A DNA stretch of 43,536 nt. It comes from an uncultured Clostridium sp. Its GTDB lineage: Bacteria > Bacillota_I > Bacilli_A > RF39 > UBA660. Within the stretch, counting starts at the first letter, position 1. Each line of letters opens with the position of its first letter. Location of the stretch: assembly GCA_946414595.1 (NCBI GenBank), contig CAMKPE010000014.1, forward strand, positions 1 through 43,536, written 5' to 3'. Positions 9,075-32,848 of this stretch are shown in pieces. Both the position numbers and the translations under genes were made by a program. A model generated the notes under the pieces. The model was not told the origin of the DNA. It did not search any database and worked only from the letters and a program-made list of their open reading frames with translations.

Positions 9075-9374
9075 TTAAATATCTTGAGATAATGCGAAAA
9101 CTAATTTATCTTCGCCATATAATTCAGTATATCTTTTTACAATAATATCTTTTCTTAAATCAAAATATTCTTCTTCACTAATTTTACTAGATTTTTTATT
9201 GTATTCTTTATCTAATACTCCTAAACGTTTTATTAATACTTTATCATTTTCCATCATTTGATTTAATAATCTTTTATTACCAATATTAGATATTTTTCTT
9301 CCTATAGCTTTATACATATAAGCTGTTCTTTTTAGTCTATTAGCTGTACCTTTAACAAATAAGTAAGTAAACAT
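9075..9374 (-). CDS. Hypothetical protein, 99 aa
   Basis: A basic helical protein without a clear membrane segment or recognised motif. Its ATG overlaps the stop codon of the upstream 2-TM gene by one base (TAATG), a typical coupling junction, and a terminator follows. The pair probably works together, but the role is unknown. Confidence 0.6.
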   Translation of the reverse strand: MFTYLFVKGTANRLKRTAYMYKAIGRKISNIGNKRLLNQMMENDKVLIKRLGVLDKEYNKKSSKISEEEYFDLRKDIIVKRYTELYGEDKLVFALSQDI

Positions 9375-9694
9375 TATAATTGCCCCCTTACTCTTTTCTT
9401 GATATATTCAAGTTCAGCATCTTCATCTGTTTTTTTAGTTGTTTTCTTTACTTTTGCTCTTTTAGCACTACTATTGCTAGTCTTAATAAGATTTTCAATT
9501 AATTCCTTATCTCTTTCTTGAACTCTTACATTATTTCTATACATAAATACAAGTGCTATAGAAACAGCAAGAGATATTATAAAGAAACCGATGTTTAACA
9601 TACAAATTGAACAAATGAATACAATAACATCGCAAACAACTAGCATATAAAATCTAGCCCAATTATCCTTATAAATATTATCTAAATCTTTCAC
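9374..9694 (-). CDS. Small two-helix membrane protein, unknown function
   Basis: The protein has two adjacent hydrophobic segments (about 17-35 and 38-52) and a basic cytoplasmic C-terminal half rich in Lys, Arg and Thr. I place the start at GTG 9694, because GGGGGG lies nine bases before it and directly abuts the alternative ATG at 9703. It is the first gene of a two-gene transcript behind a consensus promoter and is coupled to the 99-aa gene. No family is recognised. Confidence 0.6.
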   Translation of the reverse strand: MKDLDNIYKDNWARFYMLVVCDVIVFICSICMLNIGFFIISLAVSIALVFMYRNNVRVQERDKELIENLIKTSNSSAKRAKVKKTTKKTDEDAELEYIKKRVRGQL

Positions 9695-9721
9695 AATAAC
9701 CATCCCCCCAAAGTTGCGTAC

Positions 9722-9750
9722 ATTATATCACATTTTGCTTATTTTGTCAA
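9722..9750 (-). promoter_or_regulatory. Consensus sigmaA promoter for the two small genes
   Basis: On the minus strand TTGACA (9745-9750), an exact 17-bp spacer and TATAAT (9722-9727) are present, with TGA before the -10. This is the closest match to consensus in the window. Confidence 0.88.
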
Positions 9751-9780
9751 AAAAAACTGGCATATTTTTATACCAGTTTA
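9749..9780 (-). terminator. Terminator of the trhP2 operon
   Basis: On the minus strand an AAACTGG/CCAGTTT stem with a 12-nt loop is followed by eight T. Its T-tract overlaps the -35 of the next promoter. Confidence 0.85.
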
Positions 9781-10959
9781 GTTTATTTTTACTCTCATCA
9801 TTGAATCTTTAACAACTTCTTTTGGAACATATATCTTTAATACTTCTTCAGGATGTCTTGCTACATCAATTGGATTCATATCTTTATCATATAGTTTTTC
9901 AACAGTAAATGATACGATATCTCCACTAGGAGTAAATATTTCAACTTCATCTCCTACTTTGAAATAATTTCTTTCAGTTATTGTTGCAATACTTGTTTCT
10001 TTATCATAATCAAGTACAAGTGCTAAGAAGTCTTGATTAGATATTTCTTGTCTTCCTGTGTAATACTGATCATTATAATCAGCTTCTTTTAAATAGTAAT
10101 GTGTACTTGTCTCACGATTTGCAACACGTGATAAAATCTTTTCTTCAAAATCAATTAATTCTTTATTTAATGAACCATCATAATAAGCATCAATTAATCT
10201 TCTATAAGAAGATATAACCGTTGCTAAATAATATGGAGATCTCATTCTTCCTTCAACTTTTAAAGATTTCACACCAGTACTTATTAATTTATCTAAGATA
10301 CTAGCCATATTTAAATCTTTTGTAGCAAGAGTAAACTTAGTTTCATTATCATCAATATCAAATGCAAATCTACAAATCTGAGCACATCCCCCACGATTTG
10401 AATCACGATTTGTAAAATAGTTAGATAAGCAACATCTACCACTATAGAAAGTACACATTGCTCCATGAATGAATACTTCTAAATCTAGTCCTGTTTCTTT
10501 ATAAATCTCTTCTATTTCTTTTATTGATACTTCACGAGCAAGAACTACTCTATCAACACCTTCACTTTTCCAATATTTAACACTTTCAACATTAGTTGTT
10601 GATCCTTGAGTACTTAAGTGAACTTCTACATCAAAATTTTCTTTAATGTATTTAATAATAAACGGATCACTTACTATAAACGCGTCAATTCCTGCATCTA
10701 CTACTTGTTTAATAAATTCATTAACATTTTCCAAGTCTTCATTGTGGAAAACTATATTTAAAGTTAGATATACTTTTTTATTTATGTTATGAGCAAAATC
10801 ACATGCTTCTTTTATTTCTTCAATACTAAAGTTATTAGCATTTGCTCTTAAACTATATTCTTGTCCACCAATATATACTGCATCAGCTCCATATAATAAA
10901 GAAAACTTTAGTCTTTCTAAATCACCTGCTGGTGCTAATAGTTCTACTCTCTTAGTCAT
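9778..10959 (-). CDS. trhP2: U32-family tRNA hydroxylation protein (YrrO/TrhP2 type)
   Basis: In B. subtilis the YrrN-YrrO pair, annotated as U32 peptidases, makes 5-hydroxyuridine at tRNA position 34. This 393-aa protein carries the U32 signature EVFIHGAMC...SGRCCLSNYF, with Cys169, Cys176/177, Cys192 and Cys196 forming the expected iron-sulfur site, and an N-terminal ELLAPAGD barrel motif. It overlaps the smaller partner gene by 8 bases and is the last gene of the ireB-ruvX-yrzB-mltG-trmR-trhP1-trhP2 operon, the same order as in B. subtilis. The symbol rests on synteny and motif. Confidence 0.9.
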   Translation of the reverse strand: MTKRVELLAPAGDLERLKFSLLYGADAVYIGGQEYSLRANANNFSIEEIKEACDFAHNINKKVYLTLNIVFHNEDLENVNEFIKQVVDAGIDAFIVSDPFIIKYIKENFDVEVHLSTQGSTTNVESVKYWKSEGVDRVVLAREVSIKEIEEIYKETGLDLEVFIHGAMCTFYSGRCCLSNYFTNRDSNRGGCAQICRFAFDIDDNETKFTLATKDLNMASILDKLISTGVKSLKVEGRMRSPYYLATVISSYRRLIDAYYDGSLNKELIDFEEKILSRVANRETSTHYYLKEADYNDQYYTGRQEISNQDFLALVLDYDKETSIATITERNYFKVGDEVEIFTPSGDIVSFTVEKLYDKDMNPIDVARHPEEVLKIYVPKEVVKDSMMRVKIN

Positions 10960-11803
10960 TTTTCTTCACCTTATAAATAGTCTTCGTAAAGAAGAATCCT
11001 CTATTTTCCCCTACTAAATTATCTAACTCTATAGCATATTTATCATCTTTTGTATTAACAAGACTAACGTATAATTCTAAAGCTTTATTAAAAGTATTCT
11101 TATCAAAATTATAATCATTCAAAATAATATAATCGACATCTAAGTCTTTTATAATATTACTTCCATTTAGTGCTTTACCAAACAAGAAAGCATTTCCCTT
11201 ATCTTCTTCTTTTACAATATATTCTTCACCATTATTAATAATTGTATAATTATCTTTTTTCTTTTCTTTACCAATAGATTTAAAGTAATTAGATAGTAAA
11301 CTTCTTCTTGTATATCCCATAACTTGGTATCCTAAAACGTTTACAAATAGTTTCATCTTAGTTTTCTTACTTATCTCGTTAATTTCATCAAGTGTAATCT
11401 CACTTGCTATTACTCCATAAGTACATCCTTTGTCATAGTAATAGTTACATGTATTATAGTTTGTAACCATATGTGTTTGATTCCATACAAGAGGAGTTTT
11501 AAGTTTTAATCTATTGTGAATAGATAATACTGAAATGTCATAGAAAAGGATTCCATTAATATCTAATTTATCTAGTTCTATTAACTTATCTTCCAATTCT
11601 TTTAATTCAGAATTAAACATATTCTTATTTACTGCTATGAATAATTCACCAGTATAAGTCTTTCTTAATTCTTTTATTTCTTCAATTGATAATTCATTAT
11701 GATAACCACTTGAAAAGTTTAATAAACCAAAAATAAAGGCATTAGCCCCTATTTTTTCATATTCAAGTATATTATCTTTACTACATACAGTAGCAATTTT
11801 CAT
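10952..11803 (-). CDS. trhP1: U32-family tRNA hydroxylation partner (YrrN/TrhP1 type)
   Basis: The shorter U32 paralogue has the family's barrel pattern (IGANAFIFGLLNFS, LFIAVNK.MF, VNVLGYQVMG) but lacks the cysteine cluster of its neighbour, as expected for the partner subunit. The start is ATG 11803 (MKIATV), preceded by GGGTGAT; a TTG at 11815 overlaps that ribosome site and is rejected. It lies 4 bases after trmR and overlaps trhP2, so the three tRNA U34 genes are translationally linked. Confidence 0.85.
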   Translation of the reverse strand: MKIATVCSKDNILEYEKIGANAFIFGLLNFSSGYHNELSIEEIKELRKTYTGELFIAVNKNMFNSELKELEDKLIELDKLDINGILFYDISVLSIHNRLKLKTPLVWNQTHMVTNYNTCNYYYDKGCTYGVIASEITLDEINEISKKTKMKLFVNVLGYQVMGYTRRSLLSNYFKSIGKEKKKDNYTIINNGEEYIVKEEDKGNAFLFGKALNGSNIIKDLDVDYIILNDYNFDKNTFNKALELYVSLVNTKDDKYAIELDNLVGENRGFFFTKTIYKVKKND

Positions 11804-24176: not shown

Positions 24177-25268
24177 CTAACTACTTTTATATTCTTCTAT
24201 TTCTTTAACATCTAAATCCATTTGTCCATCAACTTTTTTCATCTTAGCACCATTGATAACAACTACTACTGCACTTACTAAAATGTAGAAATAGAATGAT
24301 ACAAATCTATTAACAAGCATTGCACTACTTAATACAAGTTCTCCAAATACTCCACCAAATAACTTCAAGAACAATGTTTCACTAACTCCAATTGATCCAG
24401 GAAGCGGAATACTACAAACCATAATATATAAAATAGATTGAATTGACAACAATTCTATATAACTATAACCTGTTAATCCAAAAGCTTTATATACAAAAAA
24501 TGGAATTGAATGTAAGAATAATACTTGAATAAATACTCTTACGATTGATTTAAAAAACTCCATCTTGTGTGTCTTAACAAATTTAGCACTTTTATTATAT
24601 TGACTTAATCCTTCTTCAATCTTATTTTTCTTAATATCAAGATTTTTAACTTTAACAAGTTTTAATATTCCAATAAAGAAATTAACTATTTTCTTAGTAA
24701 TTTTCTTTGAAAAAATTCCAATAAACATCATTGTTAATACAAAAGCATTTAATACAAGCCCAAGAATAAATATCCAAAGTATTCCCCCACTTAATATTGA
24801 TGGATTAACTAATGCACAAAGTATTGCTATTAAAAGCGTACTAATTTGAAATCCACATAATTGTAACATCATAGCAAGCGTACCATTAGCAGTAGTTATT
24901 CCTTCTTTAGTCATATAATATACTTCTACTGGTTGTCCTCCAGTTGCTGCAGGTGTTATTGCGCTAAAAAAGAAACCAATCCAAGTGAACTTTAATGCTT
25001 TAAAAATAGAAATCTTCTTTTCTCCCAATGATACTAAAACACTTCTAATATTAATAGATTCAGTTAAATATACAAGAAGCATTAACAAAATACTTGCAAA
25101 AACATAAATAATATTAACTGACTTAATTGTTTCAAACAATTCATTTGAATCCTGATCTTTAAATAATATCCAAAAAGTAAAAGCTATTAACAATAAGAAA
25201 AATACTATATTTCTTAACATCTTTAATCCAGCACTTTTCTTAATAGGCATATCTCTATATCTTTGCAT
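24177..25268 (-). CDS. Lysylphosphatidylglycerol synthase-like integral membrane protein (UPF0104/YbhN)
   Basis: About eight hydrophobic segments carry the family signatures: FFSAITPAATGGQPVEVYYM near residues 95-115, and SIPLPGSIGVSE near 290. This matches the transmembrane half of MprF and stand-alone UPF0104 proteins; there is no aminoacyl-transfer domain, so it is not an MprF itself. Relatives are proposed lipid or polyprenyl-sugar flippases. It is a single gene behind an extended -10 promoter. The substrate is unknown. Confidence 0.88.
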   Translation of the reverse strand: MQRYRDMPIKKSAGLKMLRNIVFFLLLIAFTFWILFKDQDSNELFETIKSVNIIYVFASILLMLLVYLTESINIRSVLVSLGEKKISIFKALKFTWIGFFFSAITPAATGGQPVEVYYMTKEGITTANGTLAMMLQLCGFQISTLLIAILCALVNPSILSGGILWIFILGLVLNAFVLTMMFIGIFSKKITKKIVNFFIGILKLVKVKNLDIKKNKIEEGLSQYNKSAKFVKTHKMEFFKSIVRVFIQVLFLHSIPFFVYKAFGLTGYSYIELLSIQSILYIMVCSIPLPGSIGVSETLFLKLFGGVFGELVLSSAMLVNRFVSFYFYILVSAVVVVINGAKMKKVDGQMDLDVKEIEEYKSS

Positions 25269-25320: not shown

Positions 25321-25348
25321 AAAAAAAAAGGAATAAATAATTATTCCT
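25321..25348 (-). terminator. Terminator of the coiled-coil membrane-protein pair
   Basis: On the minus strand an AGGAATAA/TTATTCCT hairpin is followed by nine T. Confidence 0.85.
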
Positions 25349-26546
25349 CTAAACTACATAAAAATGCTTGAACGAAATCCCAAGTTGGTAGAACTTCTTT
25401 TTCAAAGTCTCGATATTCATTATAGTACTTTTTAAGTCCACATTTACTTGATGAATCATTTTTATATTCAACAAAACAATTAGTTGAAAAATCTTTTCCA
25501 TATATTTCATTATTATATGAGAAAATATTTTTATTGTCATCATCTTCATGACCATATATTACATAGTAATCATTATTAATCCATATTTGTTTACCATCTT
25601 TTTCATAACGATATTTCTTTTTATTATATTTCCATCCACTATCATCAAGTGCTTTTAGTAAAATGTCACATCTTTTACCACTATTTTTATCTTTGTTTCT
25701 TTCTTCTTCATCTTCAACTTCAGCTTCAATTTTTTTCATACCTTCAAGCATATAATCTTCTAATTCTTCAGATGATATGCCTACTTTATCAGTAAATTCT
25801 GTTAATGCTTCAACATCATAAATAAATATGACATACTTGCCTACTTTCTTTTCCATAGCAACTTTATTCTTGTCTGATGCTGGAGCAAACTGGTCATAAA
25901 AATCTTGATAAGTAACTAATATTATATCATTATCCTTTTCATCAGTTACTTTAACATTTTCCATAGTATTAACAATATGATAACTATCATCATATTCATA
26001 GTATGAATATGAATACTGACATTTTACTGGTCCATCTTTTATGGTACCATCAAAAGAATAACAATTACCATCAGCATCTTTTTTGTTAATTAATGAAATG
26101 TAATATATCGAATATCCATATTTCCTTGCTTTTGCATCTAAACTTGTTTTTCTAAATACAAAATAATACACCAAGAAACCAGCTATTAAAAGTGCAACAA
26201 TAATAAGTAACACAATAAATAGTTTTTTCTTGCTCTTTTTATGTTTCTTTTCTTCTTTCTTGTCATGAGAAATCTTATCAAACTCTTCACTTGTCTTGGT
26301 TATAAAATCATTGATCTCATCTTCTTCAGAAGTTTCTTTCTTTACAACTGGTTCTTCTTGTGAAACTTCTTCAACAACACCTGGTTTTACCGCATCATCA
26401 AGCAAAGAATCATTATCCGAAGGTTGGTTTAATTTTTCTTTGATTTTCTCATTTTCCTCTTTTAAACGATTAATTTCTTCATTAACTGCTAGTTTTTCTT
26501 TTAATGCTTCGTTTTCTTTTCTTATTTTTTCAATTTCATCTTCCAT
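25341..26546 (-). CDS. Membrane protein with N-terminal coiled coil and extracytoplasmic domain
   Basis: Residues 1-45 form a heptad-rich coiled coil of Leu/Glu/Lys. An acidic linker and a Lys-rich stretch lead to one membrane helix (about 109-131). An extracytoplasmic part of about 270 residues, rich in Tyr, Lys and Asp, contains several Cys (for example GNCYS, VKCQY, KRCDI, TNCFV, SKCGL) that could form disulfides. The orientation is cytoplasmic N-terminus, external C-terminus. It starts 3 bases after the upstream gene, which has the same architecture, so the two are co-translated. I recognise no family. Confidence 0.7.
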   Translation of the reverse strand: MEDEIEKIRKENEALKEKLAVNEEINRLKEENEKIKEKLNQPSDNDSLLDDAVKPGVVEEVSQEEPVVKKETSEEDEINDFITKTSEEFDKISHDKKEEKKHKKSKKKLFIVLLIIVALLIAGFLVYYFVFRKTSLDAKARKYGYSIYYISLINKKDADGNCYSFDGTIKDGPVKCQYSYSYYEYDDSYHIVNTMENVKVTDEKDNDIILVTYQDFYDQFAPASDKNKVAMEKKVGKYVIFIYDVEALTEFTDKVGISSEELEDYMLEGMKKIEAEVEDEEERNKDKNSGKRCDILLKALDDSGWKYNKKKYRYEKDGKQIWINNDYYVIYGHEDDDNKNIFSYNNEIYGKDFSTNCFVEYKNDSSSKCGLKKYYNEYRDFEKEVLPTWDFVQAFLCSLEE

Positions 26547-26549
26547 ATT

Positions 26550-26969
26550 CTACTTCCATTCTACACATTTTTGGCCTGTAACTTCACAGCCACTACTCAT
26601 TGTATATTTGCACCAGTCAAAATTATAAGTATTTTCCCATCTCACACACTGCTTTTCTGTCGAAGTATTATTATGATAGTTAGAAGTGTTAGAAACATTT
26701 GGACTATCATCATCTTTATTAGTAATAAAATAAACAACACCTATTACAAATCCGATTATAATTAATAATGCTAAAACATTAGTTATAGAAAAATTTTGAC
26801 CACTTCTATTATTGTGGTTATTTTCATTTCTATAATATTCTCTTCTTTCTTCAAGTATCTCTTCTTTTTCTTCATTTAATTTTTTGTTTTTTTCTTGAAG
26901 TTCTAATTGCTTTTTCAAAAGTTCATTTTGTTCACGTAACAATTCCAATTCATCTAATTCTTTACTCAT
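26550..26969 (-). CDS. Small membrane protein with N-terminal coiled coil and Cys-rich tail
   Basis: Residues 1-45 are a heptad-rich coiled coil with repeated E-L-L-x-x-Q patterns, followed by one helix (about 62-83). The external tail of about 55 residues holds four Cys and Trp residues (QCVRW, DWCKY, GCEV, KCVEW), the pattern of a small disulfide-stabilised domain. It has the same layout as the next gene, is 3 bases from it and was probably derived from or pairs with it. Function unknown. Confidence 0.65.
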   Translation of the reverse strand: MSKELDELELLREQNELLKKQLELQEKNKKLNEEKEEILEERREYYRNENNHNNRSGQNFSITNVLALLIIIGFVIGVVYFITNKDDDSPNVSNTSNYHNNTSTEKQCVRWENTYNFDWCKYTMSSGCEVTGQKCVEWK

Positions 26970-27083: not shown

Positions 27084-27440
27084 ATGATACAAGTAGGAAT
27101 TGATTTATTAAATAATAATAGAATTGAAAAAATGAAAAGCAATCCAACACTTATGAATAAATTATTTACTGAAGAAGAATTAAAGTATAGTAAAAGAAGA
27201 AATGATTATAATGGTACAATTGCCGGTTTATTCTGTTCTAAAGAAGCTTTTTTAAAAGCAATAAAAAAAGGAATAGATAATTATTCCTTTAAAGATATTG
27301 AAATATTACACGATGAGTTTGGTGCTCCTTATATTGCCTTACATAATGAATTATATGATTTATATAAAGACAAAAATATAAGCGTATCAATTTCTCATGA
27401 TGGTGATTATACTACTTCTATTGTATTAATAGAATTCTAA
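27084..27440 (+). CDS. acpS: Holo-acyl-carrier-protein synthase
   Basis: AcpS transfers 4'-phosphopantetheine from CoA to a Ser of carrier proteins. The metal ligands are visible as Asp7 (GIDLL) and Glu54 (FCSKEAFLKAI), with the early block FTEEEL.Y and the final SISHDGDY. The 118-aa length is standard. It is the only gene on the plus strand and its end overlaps the SGNH gene of the convergent dlt-like operon by 15 bases. That operon encodes a carrier protein needing exactly this modification, though AcpS may also serve fatty-acid synthesis. Confidence 0.94.
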   Translation: MIQVGIDLLNNNRIEKMKSNPTLMNKLFTEEELKYSKRRNDYNGTIAGLFCSKEAFLKAIKKGIDNYSFKDIEILHDEFGAPYIALHNELYDLYKDKNISVSISHDGDYTTSIVLIEF

Positions 27441-28355
27441 TTGTTTAGCATACTTTTTATATGCTTCATTCCAATCACTGTAGTTTTTTTCATCTTTATG
27501 TGAAGTTACTAAATCATGTTCTTTAATATAGTTTCCTAAATAATGGGAAACTTTTTTTGCGCCTTCATAATTTAAGTGACTTCCCTCATCTTTTGTTTCA
27601 GTAGACCAATCTATATGCAATTCATTAACTAAATTTAAATCAATAAATTCTAGATTATATTGTTCTGCAAAAGATGAAGCCTTCTTATCTTTTTCATAAC
27701 TCCAACTTTTCATACTTGGAATTCCAAATAGAATAAGTTTAATGTCATTTTCTTCACATAGTTTTAATATTTTTTCAAAATACTCTACGTTAACTTCAGG
27801 TATATTTATTGTCTTATGCATATTCTTCATGTAGTTATATTTAGCTGCTTTATTAACTCTATTAACGTAATAGTAACCTTTATTAACATTAAGTGTTTTA
27901 CCATACTCTAGTAAATCTTTCCAATTATCATGATATTCATTTAATAGTGAATATCTATCATAGAAATCTTTTAGTTTTCTTTCACTTGTTCTATTCTTAG
28001 GATCTCTAAACAATACGTTAGCTTCTAAGAATATTACTTTAGGATGTTGTCTTTCAACTGCAATCTTGATGTATTCGTAACTTGTTTCAGTTAACTGTGC
28101 AGGAGTTGAACAATCAAATGAAGTAAAACCATACTCATTCCATATCTCCATTGGAGAAACAGAATTGTATACTAAACTATCCCCCACAAATAATACATCA
28201 ATCTTATCATCATCTTCTTCTAAGATTTCATAATCAAGATAATTTAAGAAACTATATTTAAATAAATTGTTCTTTGGTAAGAGAATATAAATTGATATTC
28301 CAAGAAGAACTAGAAAGATTGAAATAAAGCATATGCTTTTTAATACATTCTTCAT
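27426..28355 (-). CDS. DltD-like SGNH-fold envelope acyl-transfer protein
   Basis: An N-terminal membrane helix (about 7-27) anchors an extracytoplasmic SGNH domain. The nucleophile block is VGDSLVYNS (Ser near residue 59) and the C-terminal catalytic block is DEGSHLNYEGAKK with Asp and His. Such proteins are encoded beside MBOAT acyltransferases (DltD with DltB, AlgX/PatB types) and complete acyl transfer to a cell-surface polymer. It lies 8 bases behind the MBOAT gene with AGGAGG before its ATG and is the last gene of the operon. It is much shorter than DltD (309 versus about 400 aa), so I do not use that symbol. Confidence 0.82.
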   Translation of the reverse strand: MKNVLKSICFISIFLVLLGISIYILLPKNNLFKYSFLNYLDYEILEEDDDKIDVLFVGDSLVYNSVSPMEIWNEYGFTSFDCSTPAQLTETSYEYIKIAVERQHPKVIFLEANVLFRDPKNRTSERKLKDFYDRYSLLNEYHDNWKDLLEYGKTLNVNKGYYYVNRVNKAAKYNYMKNMHKTINIPEVNVEYFEKILKLCEENDIKLILFGIPSMKSWSYEKDKKASSFAEQYNLEFIDLNLVNELHIDWSTETKDEGSHLNYEGAKKVSHYLGNYIKEHDLVTSHKDEKNYSDWNEAYKKYAKQLEFY

Positions 28356-28363
28356 AAGTCCTC

Positions 28364-29941
28364 CTAAAAGTCTGCGTATATTGGGTCAACTGGTGCATAA
28401 GTTGGTCCATACGCTCCAAATATGATGATAGCTAGAATTAATAAATAATAAATTGTCCATCTAACTACTATATTCTTCTTTTCAACTTTTTCTCTTACAT
28501 CAATATTCTTCTCTTTTAATATACTTATTACAAGTACTACTATTAATCCAATAAAGATTAATGCTACATCATATAAATCTAATCCAAAATAATAGAATTC
28601 ATTTTTAGATAAGACAAACATTTTAGTAAGCATTATCTTTGACATTCTAAATCCATCTCTTACTGTTTCAGCTCTAAAGAACATTTCACCAATAAATACT
28701 AAGAAAGATGTTTTAACTATTTGGAATCCATAGTACTTTTTACTATTTCTATTAATCTTTAGTTTTGCACATATCTTAACAATTAGTGGCTCAAATATAT
28801 TACCCATAAGTATTAAGAAGAAATGATACATTCCAAATAATAAGAATGTCCATCCAGCACCATGCCATAATCCATTTAAAAACCAAACACAGAAAAGTGC
28901 AATTCCACCTGCTATTAACGAACTATAATGAGCACTTAATTTCTTTCTTAAACTAACTGATAACTTTTTCAAAGGTTTAGATAAAGACACTGGATAAAAT
29001 ACATAATCTTTTAAGAAATGTCCTAAGCTAATATGCCATCTACTCCAAAAATCAGTTATATTCTTAGAAAAGAATGGCTGTCTAAAGTTCTCTGGAATCT
29101 TAATATCAAATATATCTCCAATACCCAATACTACATCCATAGTACCAGAAAACTCCATATAAAGAAGCATTGTATAAGACATAATTCCTATTAAGATAGA
29201 TAATCCATTAAAACTCATATAATTATTAAATACTTGTTTAACCAAGATATTTAATCTATCAACAATTACTAACTTTTTAAAGAATCCAAATAATATTCTT
29301 TGATATCCATAACAAAAGTTATGATAAGTTACTTTAGAAGCATTATATATTTGTTCTGCTGTTTCACTATAAGTTGATATTGGTCCTTCCATAATCTGTG
29401 GAAAAAAAGACACATATAAAGCAAGTCTAACAAAATTGTCATCTGCTTCTATCTTTCCATTATAAGTATCAACAACATAAGATATTGCTTTCAAAGTATA
29501 ATAAGATATACCTAAAGGAGCTATTAAAGTTATAAGCGATAATTTCTCTAATTTAAATAAGTTTAATATTACATTTAAATTAATAGTAAAAAACTTCAAA
29601 TATTTAAATATAAATAGAAAAGCTATATTAAATAATATTACTATTAATAAAACACGTCTTTTCTTTTTCTTATACTTTTCTTTAATAAGTTTTTTATCTA
29701 TATCTTCTTTTTCTAACTCTTTGGACTTTTCTCCATCAAGTTTTTTAAACTTCTTTCCTGCAAGAAATATAGATATTGTAGATAGCAATAAAAATATGAT
29801 AAGGAATTTACTTACCATAAAGAATATTGCATAACTAGCAATTAATAATATATATGGTTTTGCTTTTTTAGGTACTAGCATGAAGATTAATACTACTACT
29901 GGTACAAATAAAAAAGCAAACCATAAGTCAAAATATGACAC
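28364..29941 (-). CDS. MBOAT-family O-acyltransferase (DltB-like)
   Basis: A polytopic protein of about eleven membrane segments. The family blocks are FFPQIMEGPI, FWSRWHISLGHFLKDYVFYP and the catalytic His in NGLWHGAGW. MBOAT proteins in such operons pass an acyl group from a cytoplasmic carrier across the membrane. A charged loop of about 45 residues near position 70-110 is unusual. The start is GTG 29941, one base after the carrier-protein stop, so translation is coupled. Substrate is inferred from context only. Confidence 0.9.
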   Translation of the reverse strand: MSYFDLWFAFLFVPVVVLIFMLVPKKAKPYILLIASYAIFFMVSKFLIIFLLLSTISIFLAGKKFKKLDGEKSKELEKEDIDKKLIKEKYKKKKRRVLLIVILFNIAFLFIFKYLKFFTINLNVILNLFKLEKLSLITLIAPLGISYYTLKAISYVVDTYNGKIEADDNFVRLALYVSFFPQIMEGPISTYSETAEQIYNASKVTYHNFCYGYQRILFGFFKKLVIVDRLNILVKQVFNNYMSFNGLSILIGIMSYTMLLYMEFSGTMDVVLGIGDIFDIKIPENFRQPFFSKNITDFWSRWHISLGHFLKDYVFYPVSLSKPLKKLSVSLRKKLSAHYSSLIAGGIALFCVWFLNGLWHGAGWTFLLFGMYHFFLILMGNIFEPLIVKICAKLKINRNSKKYYGFQIVKTSFLVFIGEMFFRAETVRDGFRMSKIMLTKMFVLSKNEFYYFGLDLYDVALIFIGLIVVLVISILKEKNIDVREKVEKKNIVVRWTIYYLLILAIIIFGAYGPTYAPVDPIYADF

Positions 29942-29942
29942 T

Positions 29943-30170
29943 CTATTCCTCTTTCAATCTTTCAATTAAAGCATAAATACTTTTTGCAGAATTAAAGTTA
30001 GCAGGAATTATTTCTACTGTAGGAACTTCAACATCAAATTCATTTTCTATTTCTGATATTAAAGATAATATTGTTAATGAATCTAAATGTCTTCCATCTA
30101 CTAGATCTTCACAAGTCTTATAATCAACATCAGGTTGTAATTCCTCTAATATTTCAATTAACTTATCCAT
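29943..30170 (-). CDS. Acyl/aminoacyl carrier protein (DltC-like)
   Basis: A 75-residue carrier protein with the phosphopantetheine site Asp-Ser-Leu in HLDSLTILSLISEIE (Ser31 from this start). It then has FDVEVP, which is common to DltC and other aminoacyl carrier proteins. The start is ATG 30170 (MDKLIE), because GAGGAGGAG lies directly before it; a frame reaching 30185 would start inside the previous gene. It sits between the PLP decarboxylase and MBOAT genes, one base from each. AcpS (27084) should activate it. Confidence 0.88.
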   Translation of the reverse strand: MDKLIEILEELQPDVDYKTCEDLVDGRHLDSLTILSLISEIENEFDVEVPTVEIIPANFNSAKSIYALIERLKEE

Positions 30171-30171
30171 T

Positions 30172-31341
30172 TTACTCCTCCTCATAACAAGGACAATTTA
30201 TTTCACTTGTCTTGTTATTATTTCTTACTAATATATCTTTATTATTTTTTATAAGAACTACCTTAGGTAATTCTCTACTTAAGAATAGTGCAATTCCTTC
30301 AGTTGAAGAATAAGCACCTGCATTCTTAAATATAAATGTATCACCAATATTCAATTTATTCAATTCTATATTTTTAATTAATAAATCATTTGTAGTACAT
30401 AAAGATCCACATAAATTATATATTTCTTTTTCTTTTTCTTCTTTTTGTATTATTTCAAAGTGTGGTATCTTCATAGCCATCATTTGACCATAATATACTA
30501 AATGGTTAATACCACCATCTAATATTACAAAGTTACCATTCTTGTTATCTTTGATATCAACAACACTAGTCAAATAAGATCCACAAGAAGCAGCAATACT
30601 TCTTCCTATTTCAAGAGTAATAGTCTTATTACCAAACTTCTCTATTAATTTATTTAAATCTTTTAGATAACTATCTTCATCAAAAGAATCATTTTGGAAA
30701 TAGAATACTGGAAGTCCTGGTCCATATTCTATTTCTTTTATTTCAAAATTCAAATCATTCTCAATTGTATTAATAAGTTCATTAATATGATTAATATCTT
30801 TTTCAATTATAGTTAAAGAATGTTTCTCAGTACCAGCAAAGTATTCAATACCTGTTATATTTAAGTATTTATTATCATTTTCTTTAATAATTTTTAATAA
30901 GCAATCTTCACTAACACCAAACTGATTTCCACTAGTTAATCTAATTAATACATCAATATTTCTTTTATATTTCTTACTTAATCTATTAAGTAATTCATAT
31001 TGTGTATAAGACTCAATTGTATACTTACAAACATCGTCATAATTAGATATCAACTCTTCAATAAAATCTTCATCTTTATTAACACCAGATATAACCATCT
31101 TATTTCTAGAAATATTTAACTTTTCACATATTTCATATTCACCTTGTGAACATATCTCAAATCTTTCTACTAAAGAATCAGTCTCTTTAATAATAAAAGT
31201 ATTAGCCTTTACTGCATAAGCAAAATTAAATTTTTTATTAAACTTAGATTTAAGATATTTAATCCTATCATGCAAAGAATCTATATCATAGATAAATAAT
31301 GGTGTATTATATTTTTCTTTAATAAATTTATAATCAATCAT
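30172..31341 (-). CDS. Fold-type III PLP-dependent decarboxylase in a dlt-like operon
   Basis: The protein belongs to the diaminopimelate/ornithine decarboxylase fold. PLP Lys45 is in FAYAVKAN, the specificity region is EYFAGTEKH, the glycine loop EYGPGLPVF, EIGRSIAASCG replaces the usual EPGR, and the active-site Cys block CGSLCTTNDLL and GAYSS follow. Alanine racemase lacks the last blocks, so racemase is disfavoured. The CTxxD block resembles decarboxylases encoded with an AMP-ligase and ACP in butirosin and exosortase-A clusters. The start is ATG 31341 after AAGGATGAT, overlapping the ligase gene by 8 bases. The substrate may be a carrier-bound amino acid rather than a free one. Confidence 0.85.
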   Translation of the reverse strand: MIDYKFIKEKYNTPLFIYDIDSLHDRIKYLKSKFNKKFNFAYAVKANTFIIKETDSLVERFEICSQGEYEICEKLNISRNKMVISGVNKDEDFIEELISNYDDVCKYTIESYTQYELLNRLSKKYKRNIDVLIRLTSGNQFGVSEDCLLKIIKENDNKYLNITGIEYFAGTEKHSLTIIEKDINHINELINTIENDLNFEIKEIEYGPGLPVFYFQNDSFDEDSYLKDLNKLIEKFGNKTITLEIGRSIAASCGSYLTSVVDIKDNKNGNFVILDGGINHLVYYGQMMAMKIPHFEIIQKEEKEKEIYNLCGSLCTTNDLLIKNIELNKLNIGDTFIFKNAGAYSSTEGIALFLSRELPKVVLIKNNKDILVRNNNKTSEINCPCYEEE

Positions 31342-32848
31342 GTTTATCATCCTTCATTAATAGTAATGCTTTTCTATCTATCTTACCATTTTTATTTATT
31401 GGAAATTCATCTATTTGAATTAATTTAGATGGAATCATAAATACTGGTAATTTCTCTTTTAATTTAAGATGTAATTCTTTCTTATCAATACTTCCTACAT
31501 AGAAAGCATATAACTTTGATTTTTCTTCTTCAAAGATACAACAAGCTCTTTCTACTTCTTTAAAATCCATTATAGATTTTTCTATTTCTTCAAGTTCAAT
31601 TCTATGACCTTGATATTTTATTTGAAAGTCTACTCTTCCATTAAATACTAAATCATTATCCTCATTATAGAATGCCAAATCACCTGTTTTGTAAATCATT
31701 TCATTGTAATTCTTTTCAAGTGGATTCTGCATAAAATGTTTTTCAGTTTGTTCTTTATTGTTATAGTAACCAAGAGCAAGACATGTTCCTGCAACACAAA
31801 GTTCTCCCACTTCATTTTTCTTAGTAATTAACTTATTATCTTTATCAAGTAAGAATACTTTCTCATTAGGAAAAGCCTTACCTATTGGAATCTTATCATA
31901 TTCTTTTTTATTATCTATTATGTAATAAGTACAGTTACATGTTATTTCAGTAGGTCCATACAAATTAACAAACATTGTCTTTGGCAAATGCTTCTTCCAA
32001 ATATCTAAATGTTTAACAGGCATTACTTCCCCACTAAACAGTATCTTGTTTACTTTATCAGGAACTTTATAATCAAGTCCATGGAATGTTGTAATAAGAC
32101 AAAGTGCTGATACTGCCCAAGTTAGTGTTGTAACATTATTTAAGCACAAATAATCTAAAAGTTTTGCAGGAGATGAGAAATAAGCTTTAGGTACAATTAC
32201 AAGTGTAGCTCCTACTTTTATCGCGCTATAAATATCTTTTACTGAAACATCAAAATCAAATGGTGCTTGATTAGCAATAATATCTTTATCATTAAAATTA
32301 AATAAGCTTGTAAAGTTATCAATAAAATCAATAACTGATTTATGTGATATTACTACTCCTTTAGGTACTCCAGTTGATCCTGAAGTAAAGTTTATATATA
32401 AAGGATTAATATCATTATGGTAACTCTTAGCAAGAAGAAGCATATTTTCATCAATGCTTTTCTTTTTTAAATCTTTAATATTAAATATCTTAGAATCTTT
32501 AAAATACTCTTTAGCATTCTTAATATATTTATCATCAGAAATAACATATTTAGGATTTAATACACCGATTATTTGATTAACTCTTTCATAAGGAAATTCT
32601 GGATTAATCAAAGTATAATAACAAGATGAATAAACAATTCCAAAAAAAGAGATTAAAGCATCTATTCCCTTATCCATGTATACTACAACTGGTTCATTAA
32701 ATATTTTTTTAGACGCTAAAAAAGAGCCAATAATCATAGATGAGTCATTTAATTCTTTATAAGTTATTTTCTTATCTTCTTCAATGACTGCTATCTTTTT
32801 TGGATACTTCTTACATGTATCATTTAAATATTCTAAAACATTATTCAT
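31334..32848 (-). CDS. Amino-acid adenylation enzyme (DltA/NRPS A-domain-like)
   Basis: A stand-alone ANL-superfamily ligase that activates a carboxylate with ATP and loads it on a carrier protein. Core motifs are in order: NFTSGSTGVPKG (A3), NLYGPTEITCNCTY (A5), GELCVAGTCLALGY, YKTGDL (A7), GRVDFQIKYQGHRIE (A8) and the catalytic Lys in NGKIDRKAL (A10). The 504-aa length equals DltA. The gene content of its operon, with an added PLP decarboxylase, argues against simple D-alanine use. It is the first gene behind an extended -10 promoter. Confidence 0.9.
   Translation of the reverse strand: MNNVLEYLNDTCKKYPKKIAVIEEDKKITYKELNDSSMIIGSFLASKKIFNEPVVVYMDKGIDALISFFGIVYSSCYYTLINPEFPYERVNQIIGVLNPKYVISDDKYIKNAKEYFKDSKIFNIKDLKKKSIDENMLLLAKSYHNDINPLYINFTSGSTGVPKGVVISHKSVIDFIDNFTSLFNFNDKDIIANQAPFDFDVSVKDIYSAIKVGATLVIVPKAYFSSPAKLLDYLCLNNVTTLTWAVSALCLITTFHGLDYKVPDKVNKILFSGEVMPVKHLDIWKKHLPKTMFVNLYGPTEITCNCTYYIIDNKKEYDKIPIGKAFPNEKVFLLDKDNKLITKKNEVGELCVAGTCLALGYYNNKEQTEKHFMQNPLEKNYNEMIYKTGDLAFYNEDNDLVFNGRVDFQIKYQGHRIELEEIEKSIMDFKEVERACCIFEEEKSKLYAFYVGSIDKKELHLKLKEKLPVFMIPSKLIQIDEFPINKNGKIDRKALLLMKDDKHD

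Follow-up and report, generated by a model that had tools for sequence, protein, structure and literature searches.

D-alanylation is the textbook route by which Gram-positive bacteria place positive charge on their surface polymers. A cluster of five genes on contig CAMKPE010000014.1 of an uncultured Clostridium sp. (assembly GCA_946414595.1) raises the question of whether there is another. The window analysed here, the whole stretch of 43,536 nucleotides (nt) from position 1 of the forward strand, belongs, as one contig, to a genome of 1.44 Mb that is 94.8% complete. At 27426-32848 it carries five minus-strand open reading frames (ORFs) that encode, in this order, an adenylation enzyme (A), a pyridoxal phosphate (PLP) enzyme, a carrier protein (CP), an MBOAT acyltransferase and an SGNH protein. 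An earlier note on this DNA had described them as a close-packed Dlt-like operon behind one promoter, in which carrier-bound glutamate or a similar diacid could be decarboxylated and the product placed on a surface polymer. Our analysis upholds this interpretation in part: we recover the donor and transfer operon, a PLP enzyme distinct from LysA and a pocket suited to an acidic substrate, but not the choice of Glu specifically and not the single promoter. We consider it rather probable that the locus encodes a Dlt-like system for aminoacylating the envelope, in which decarboxylation takes place on the carrier.

The five-gene operon and its distribution

All five ORFs were found, spaced as called by -17, -14, +1 and +8 nt. 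Because the carrier gene more likely begins at 30170, the true spacing between the PLP and carrier genes is about +1 nt. Four of the five proteins match Pfam families (AMP-binding, Orn_DAP_Arg_deC, PP-binding and MBOAT). Promoter-like matches numbered 46, against 51.5 +/- 6.4 in shuffled sequences, so that there is no excess from which a single promoter ahead of the operon could be argued.

The earlier note had proposed looking for the same five-gene order elsewhere, and the set of five does recur, which makes it more than a chance arrangement. Species genomes, when scanned, yielded 34 loci; of 392 genomes of the phylum sampled separately, 15 carry the operon. All five genes lie on one strand in 42 of these 49 loci (window included), from both Bacilli and Clostridia, and the median gap is 1 nt; the 49 are not all independent, because genomes of the two scans may coincide (G141, for instance, looks identical to the genome of L024). 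Seven loci are incomplete, five of them truncated by contig ends and L013 and L035 being the exceptions. In the phylum sample the full set is present in all 14 genomes besides the window's, two of which have split genes. The operon is found in 11 of 154 genera, counting the window's own genome, and is missing from one genome of the same genus, a patchy distribution such as an accessory trait might have. Two gene orders predominate, A-PLP-CP-MBOAT-SGNH and MBOAT-SGNH-A-PLP-CP, with variants in L102 and L104. The operon occurs in many gut and rumen Firmicutes. The closest relative found is L002, from a Bacilli metagenome-assembled genome of sheep rumen, whose PLP enzyme is 88% identical, and a scan of viral contigs found no relative.

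A few loci depart from this pattern. L013 has SGNH, PLP and carrier genes (407-2747) but lacks an adenylation gene, whether among them or in the vicinity. In L035 (5758-6690) an SGNH N-terminus is joined in frame to a PLP enzyme C-terminus, a chimera that would stem either from misassembly or from a deletion within the operon. The PLP and MBOAT genes of L103 and the MBOAT gene of L102 are split, possibly by decay or sequencing error.

The adenylation enzyme

The first gene (31334..32848, minus strand) encodes a stand-alone adenylation enzyme of 504 amino acids with a Pfam AMP-binding match (E 6e-61), predicted to be the carrier-loading enzyme. Aligned to GrsA, its specificity code reads DVKTLSLCNK, in which D200 (32251-32249) corresponds to GrsA D235 and K204 (32239-32237) takes the position of GrsA W239. 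The ten GrsA residues landed at their published numbers. Residues D, V, K, S, C, N and K at positions 235, 236, 239, 301, 330, 331 and 517 are found in 43 of 44 operon adenylation enzymes (DVKxxSxCNK). This is not the D-Ala pocket of Dlt: compared with the Bacillus subtilis DltA pocket, DLMTMCTVAK, the operon code has K for M, S for C, L for T, C for V and N for A, the first of these being at position 239, where DltA has Met.

Lys at 239 is a hallmark of Glu-activating nonribosomal peptide synthetase (NRPS) domains. The code therefore makes an acidic amino acid the likely substrate, and the earlier expectation of a diacid rather than D-Ala fits the pocket. The expectation of Glu in particular does not carry over, as Asp fits at least equally. 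A PLP decarboxylase requires a free alpha-carboxylate, so for decarboxylation on the carrier the thioester would have to sit on the side-chain carboxylate.

Two loci, L031 (4222-7149) and L032 (89-1552), form a divergent subgroup in which the carrier gene is ahead of the PLP gene. The adenylation code of L031, IARGCSQASK, suggests a different substrate.

The PLP enzyme

The second gene (30172..31350, minus strand) encodes a fold-III PLP enzyme of 392 amino acids. Pfam matches (Orn_DAP_Arg_deC, Orn_Arg_deC_N) identify a fold-III barrel followed by a decarboxylase C-terminal domain. K48 (31209-31207) is the PLP-binding Lys, and C318 (30399-30397) and D322 are catalytic-site residues. These three, together with ExGR, DGG and GAY motifs, are retained in the operon enzymes, and the decarboxylase Cys, which is invariant in LysA and BtrK, is present in all 33 of them.

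In a tree of 54 proteins, from which VinO was left out, the operon PLP enzymes form one clade and LysA another, each with support of 100/100. Relatives from plasmids serve as outgroups; a plasmid search had found distant relatives only, at no more than 30% identity. The two clades also differ in residues with which LysA holds diaminopimelate at its far end. At position 286, 13 of 13 LysA sequences have Arg and 33 of 33 operon enzymes Tyr, while position 319 is Glu in every LysA and Thr or Ser in every operon enzyme (T319 in that of the window). BtrK, the exosortase-A enzyme and a carrier-linked enzyme of Streptomyces likewise lack the LysA Arg, having Ala at 286, and have Thr at 319. The operon enzymes have therefore lost the residues for the distal group while keeping the decarboxylase Lys and Cys, as BtrK-type enzymes have. 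The CE(S/N/T)xD motif of LysA is missing from the operon enzyme, which shares GxLCTxxD and DGGxxH...P motifs with BtrK. By phylogenetic placement and active-site residues, then, the operon enzyme is not LysA, and the comparison supports a resemblance to carrier-acting, BtrK-type decarboxylases, as the earlier note had anticipated.

The transfer half and the carrier protein

The MBOAT gene (28364..29941, minus strand, GTG start) encodes 525 amino acids that match the Pfam MBOAT family and, under the cut-off, the NCBIfam DltB model; DltB structures are its closest solved relatives. It has a catalytic His motif, LWHGAGW, and ends in PIYADF (28384-28367). The WHG motif is present in nearly all full-length operon MBOATs, and xxYxxF ends all 45 operon MBOAT genes that have a C terminus. 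This motif acts as the acyl-Tyr shuttle in PatA and DltX (PMC12148441), and PIYADF corresponds to the Tyr acyl-shuttle motif of PatA-type enzymes. Since this motif is fused to the MBOAT, the operon would need no separate DltX.

The SGNH gene (27426..28355, minus strand) encodes a protein with an N-terminal membrane helix and no informative Pfam match. Its nucleophile S60 (28178-28176), D256 and H260 are invariant across 18 aligned sequences, and SGNH/GDSL enzymes, PatB among them, match its AlphaFold model (predicted local distance difference test score, pLDDT, 83.8) at E values of about 1e-5 to 1e-6. The L035 chimera slightly contaminated the SGNH profile; the alignment behind the structure prediction is clean. 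In L027, from Stoquefichus, two more SGNH-like genes stand in tandem downstream of the operon (9166-11190).

The carrier gene was called at 29943..30185 (minus strand). The start at 30170, giving 75 amino acids, is more likely than that at 30185 because homologues begin with MDKLIE and a GAGGAG ribosome site lies just upstream. The protein matches Pfam PP-binding and, weakly, DltC, and its phosphopantetheine Ser lies in an LDSL site (30080-30078) of a type seen in nearly all homologues. A holo-ACP synthase gene, AcpS (27084..27440, plus strand; Pfam ACPS E 6e-15, TIGR00516 over cut-off), is convergent with the SGNH gene and overlaps its end by 15 nt. The same arrangement is seen at L095 (11220-11588), from a second genome of the family, where AcpS converges on the SGNH gene of the operon. 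The enzyme probably adds phosphopantetheine to the operon carrier. Further downstream of the operon, 24177-25268 encodes a lysylphosphatidylglycerol-synthase-type membrane domain without the synthase part, and 25341-26969 two neighbouring coiled-coil membrane proteins with no Pfam family over threshold. No Rfam RNA elements were found in the window.

Proposed mechanism and alternatives

In the mechanism that we propose, AcpS would prime the carrier and the adenylation enzyme would activate Asp or Glu at the side-chain carboxylate and load it. The PLP enzyme would then strip the still-free alpha-carboxylate, leaving on the carrier a beta-alanyl group if Asp had been loaded, or a 4-aminobutyryl group if Glu. 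The MBOAT would transfer this group onto the Tyr in the PIYADF at its own C terminus, from which the SGNH Ser would accept it and esterify a polymer outside the membrane.

Several points weigh against this mechanism. In the tree the operon PLP clade has a long branch and does not join BtrK specifically, and in structural comparison BtrK (Z 38.8) ties with LysA (Z 38.1). NRPS domains that use the alpha-carboxylate for activating Glu have the Lys code too, and after such activation nothing would remain for the PLP enzyme to decarboxylate. A thioester of 4-aminobutyrate would be prone to cyclisation, and there is no counterpart of BtrJ or VinM to protect it. The resemblance of several pocket residues to Ser-type codes, the ease of cyclisation and the lack of a protecting enzyme incline us slightly, on a weak basis, to Asp over Glu.

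The alternative that survives best changes the role of the PLP enzyme, which could racemise a carrier-bound or free amino acid, or decarboxylate a free one before loading, so that a D-amino acid, 4-aminobutyric acid or beta-alanine is transferred. The enzyme does have a weak Pfam match to the alanine racemase N domain, and loading through the alpha-carboxylate would be compatible with this alternative, as no alpha-carboxylate would be free for removal. We nevertheless think it unlikely: the decarboxylase Cys is kept throughout the operon enzymes, and the 50 best structural matches of the AlphaFold model (pLDDT 89) are all decarboxylases. If the carboxylate were already gone before loading, the conserved Lys of the adenylation pocket would have no partner.

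A second alternative keeps the chemistry and changes the acceptor, which might be a lipid, a small secreted molecule or a capsule and not a polymer like teichoic acid. Whereas the adenylation-PLP-carrier half is constant, the MBOAT-SGNH half falls into two subtypes by sequence and is found in two gene orders, and CDP-glycerol glycerophosphotransferases, present in 14 of 21 operon genomes, are absent from seven, the window's included. Nevertheless, the MBOAT-SGNH pairs treated in PMC12148441 work on envelope polymers. Proteins with an LtaS-like sulfatase domain, many of them of LtaS-like size, occur in 20 of the 21 genomes (three in the window's own), and L092 adjoins a TagF-like gene. We judge another kind of acceptor unlikely too, and our guess for the acceptor would be a polymer like lipoteichoic acid.

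It is very improbable that the locus is an ordinary D-Ala-loading dlt operon with a stray PLP enzyme that produces D-Ala. DltA, DltB and DltC models are among the top matches of the adenylation enzyme, the MBOAT and the carrier, but all score under their curated cut-offs (320 versus 476 bits and 301 versus 560 bits for DltA) and the pocket departs from that of DltA. An alanine racemase is encoded separately in the genome (C11). DltD (PF04914) is absent from the window genome and from 21 of 21 operon genomes, a tally that covers operon genomes only and is therefore no proof that the operon replaces Dlt. On pocket, scores and DltD together we rejected the standard dlt operon.

That the PLP enzyme is a housekeeping diaminopimelate decarboxylase, in the operon by chance, is scarcely credible and was rejected: it is the sole PF00278 protein of the genome and TIGR01048 lysA is its top NCBIfam match, but the score of 180 bits is under the 298-bit cut-off, it falls apart from LysA in the tree, the substrate residues are lost, DapF was not found in the window genome, and the linkage holds across Bacilli and Clostridia. 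The earlier note had counted grouping with LysA, combined with being the only such enzyme in the genome, against itself; the second applies here and the first does not, in a genome that is also without DapF. Where the operon occurs in larger genomes, these encode a LysA of their own, with a CES or CEN motif.

The mechanism that we favour, on-carrier decarboxylation of Asp or Glu, may extend beyond this genome. We see about equal reason to accept and to doubt a broader proposal, namely that this is a widespread envelope modification of gut and rumen Firmicutes, in which beta-alanyl or 4-aminobutyryl groups are esterified to a surface polymer where DltD-type D-alanylation is absent, through an MBOAT with a fused shuttle that is fed by a carrier and not by acyl-coenzyme A (acyl-CoA). 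If so, many bacteria of gut and rumen that lack DltD reach the same end by an undescribed route, which might affect sensitivity to cationic peptides and host recognition. It would also mean that the Tyr-shuttle mechanism of MBOATs can draw on carrier-bound donors once the shuttle is part of the MBOAT itself, and that decarboxylation on a carrier, familiar from antibiotics, serves the biology of the cell envelope as well.

Comparison with known systems

Among the closest known systems is Dlt (DltA, DltB, DltC, DltD, DltX). Both join in one operon a stand-alone adenylation enzyme, a small carrier that would hold the aminoacyl donor, a DltB-related MBOAT and an SGNH protein, and families, catalytic residues and linkage agree with the Dlt-like donor and transfer operon of the earlier note. 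The operon differs in its added PLP decarboxylase, in its pocket with a conserved Lys and in the absence of the DltD family. With the PatA-PatB and AlgI-type acetyltransferases it shares an MBOAT with a catalytic His and a C-terminal FxYxxF-like shuttle motif, and an SGNH partner with Ser, Asp and His. Those systems use acetyl-CoA as donor and have no carrier protein (PMC12148441), whereas the operon supplies a carrier and a dedicated loading enzyme. In the literature searched, which covered few subscription papers, we found neither a described system that joins a DltC-like carrier to a PatA-type fused Tyr shuttle nor a published account of the five-gene operon or of an MBOAT-SGNH pair with a decarboxylase.

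The donor half has other parallels. The exosortase-A ligase and decarboxylase (TIGR03098, TIGR03099) are likewise an adjacent pair of an AMP-forming ligase and a fold-III decarboxylase with a CT motif. The operon proteins fall far under the cut-offs of these models (205 versus 592 and 151 versus 478 bits), and the Sinorhizobium example has the ligase-decarboxylase pair with no MBOAT-SGNH pair annotated. The earlier note had drawn its analogy from butirosin synthesis; BtrJ is an ATP-grasp ligase, so that the parallel for the loading step is loose. BtrK decarboxylates a glutamyl group on the carrier BtrI (PMC7857480), and is in this an analogue of the operon enzyme as proposed, a fold-III PLP decarboxylase acting on a carrier-held amino acid, with the differences that the butirosin product enters an antibiotic and that identity is about 24-25% over the fold. 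A closer precedent is vicenistatin synthesis, in which VinN loads 3-methylaspartate onto the carrier VinL, where VinO decarboxylates it; FlvN, of fluvirucin synthesis, activates Asp (PMC11284099). As described, this chemistry, in which an aspartate-type diacid is loaded on a stand-alone carrier and then decarboxylated by a PLP enzyme, is that proposed for the operon, except that it yields a polyketide starter unit and not an envelope group. Trios of a fold-III PLP enzyme, an adenylation enzyme and a carrier occur also on plasmids of Streptomyces and Rhizobium (L067, L068, L070), beside ectoine-synthase or ectA/ectB-like genes and with a common adenylation code, DYYxTTMCKK. Taken with the Vin and Btr systems and the exosortase-A pair, these trios make on-carrier decarboxylation look like a recurrent donor module.

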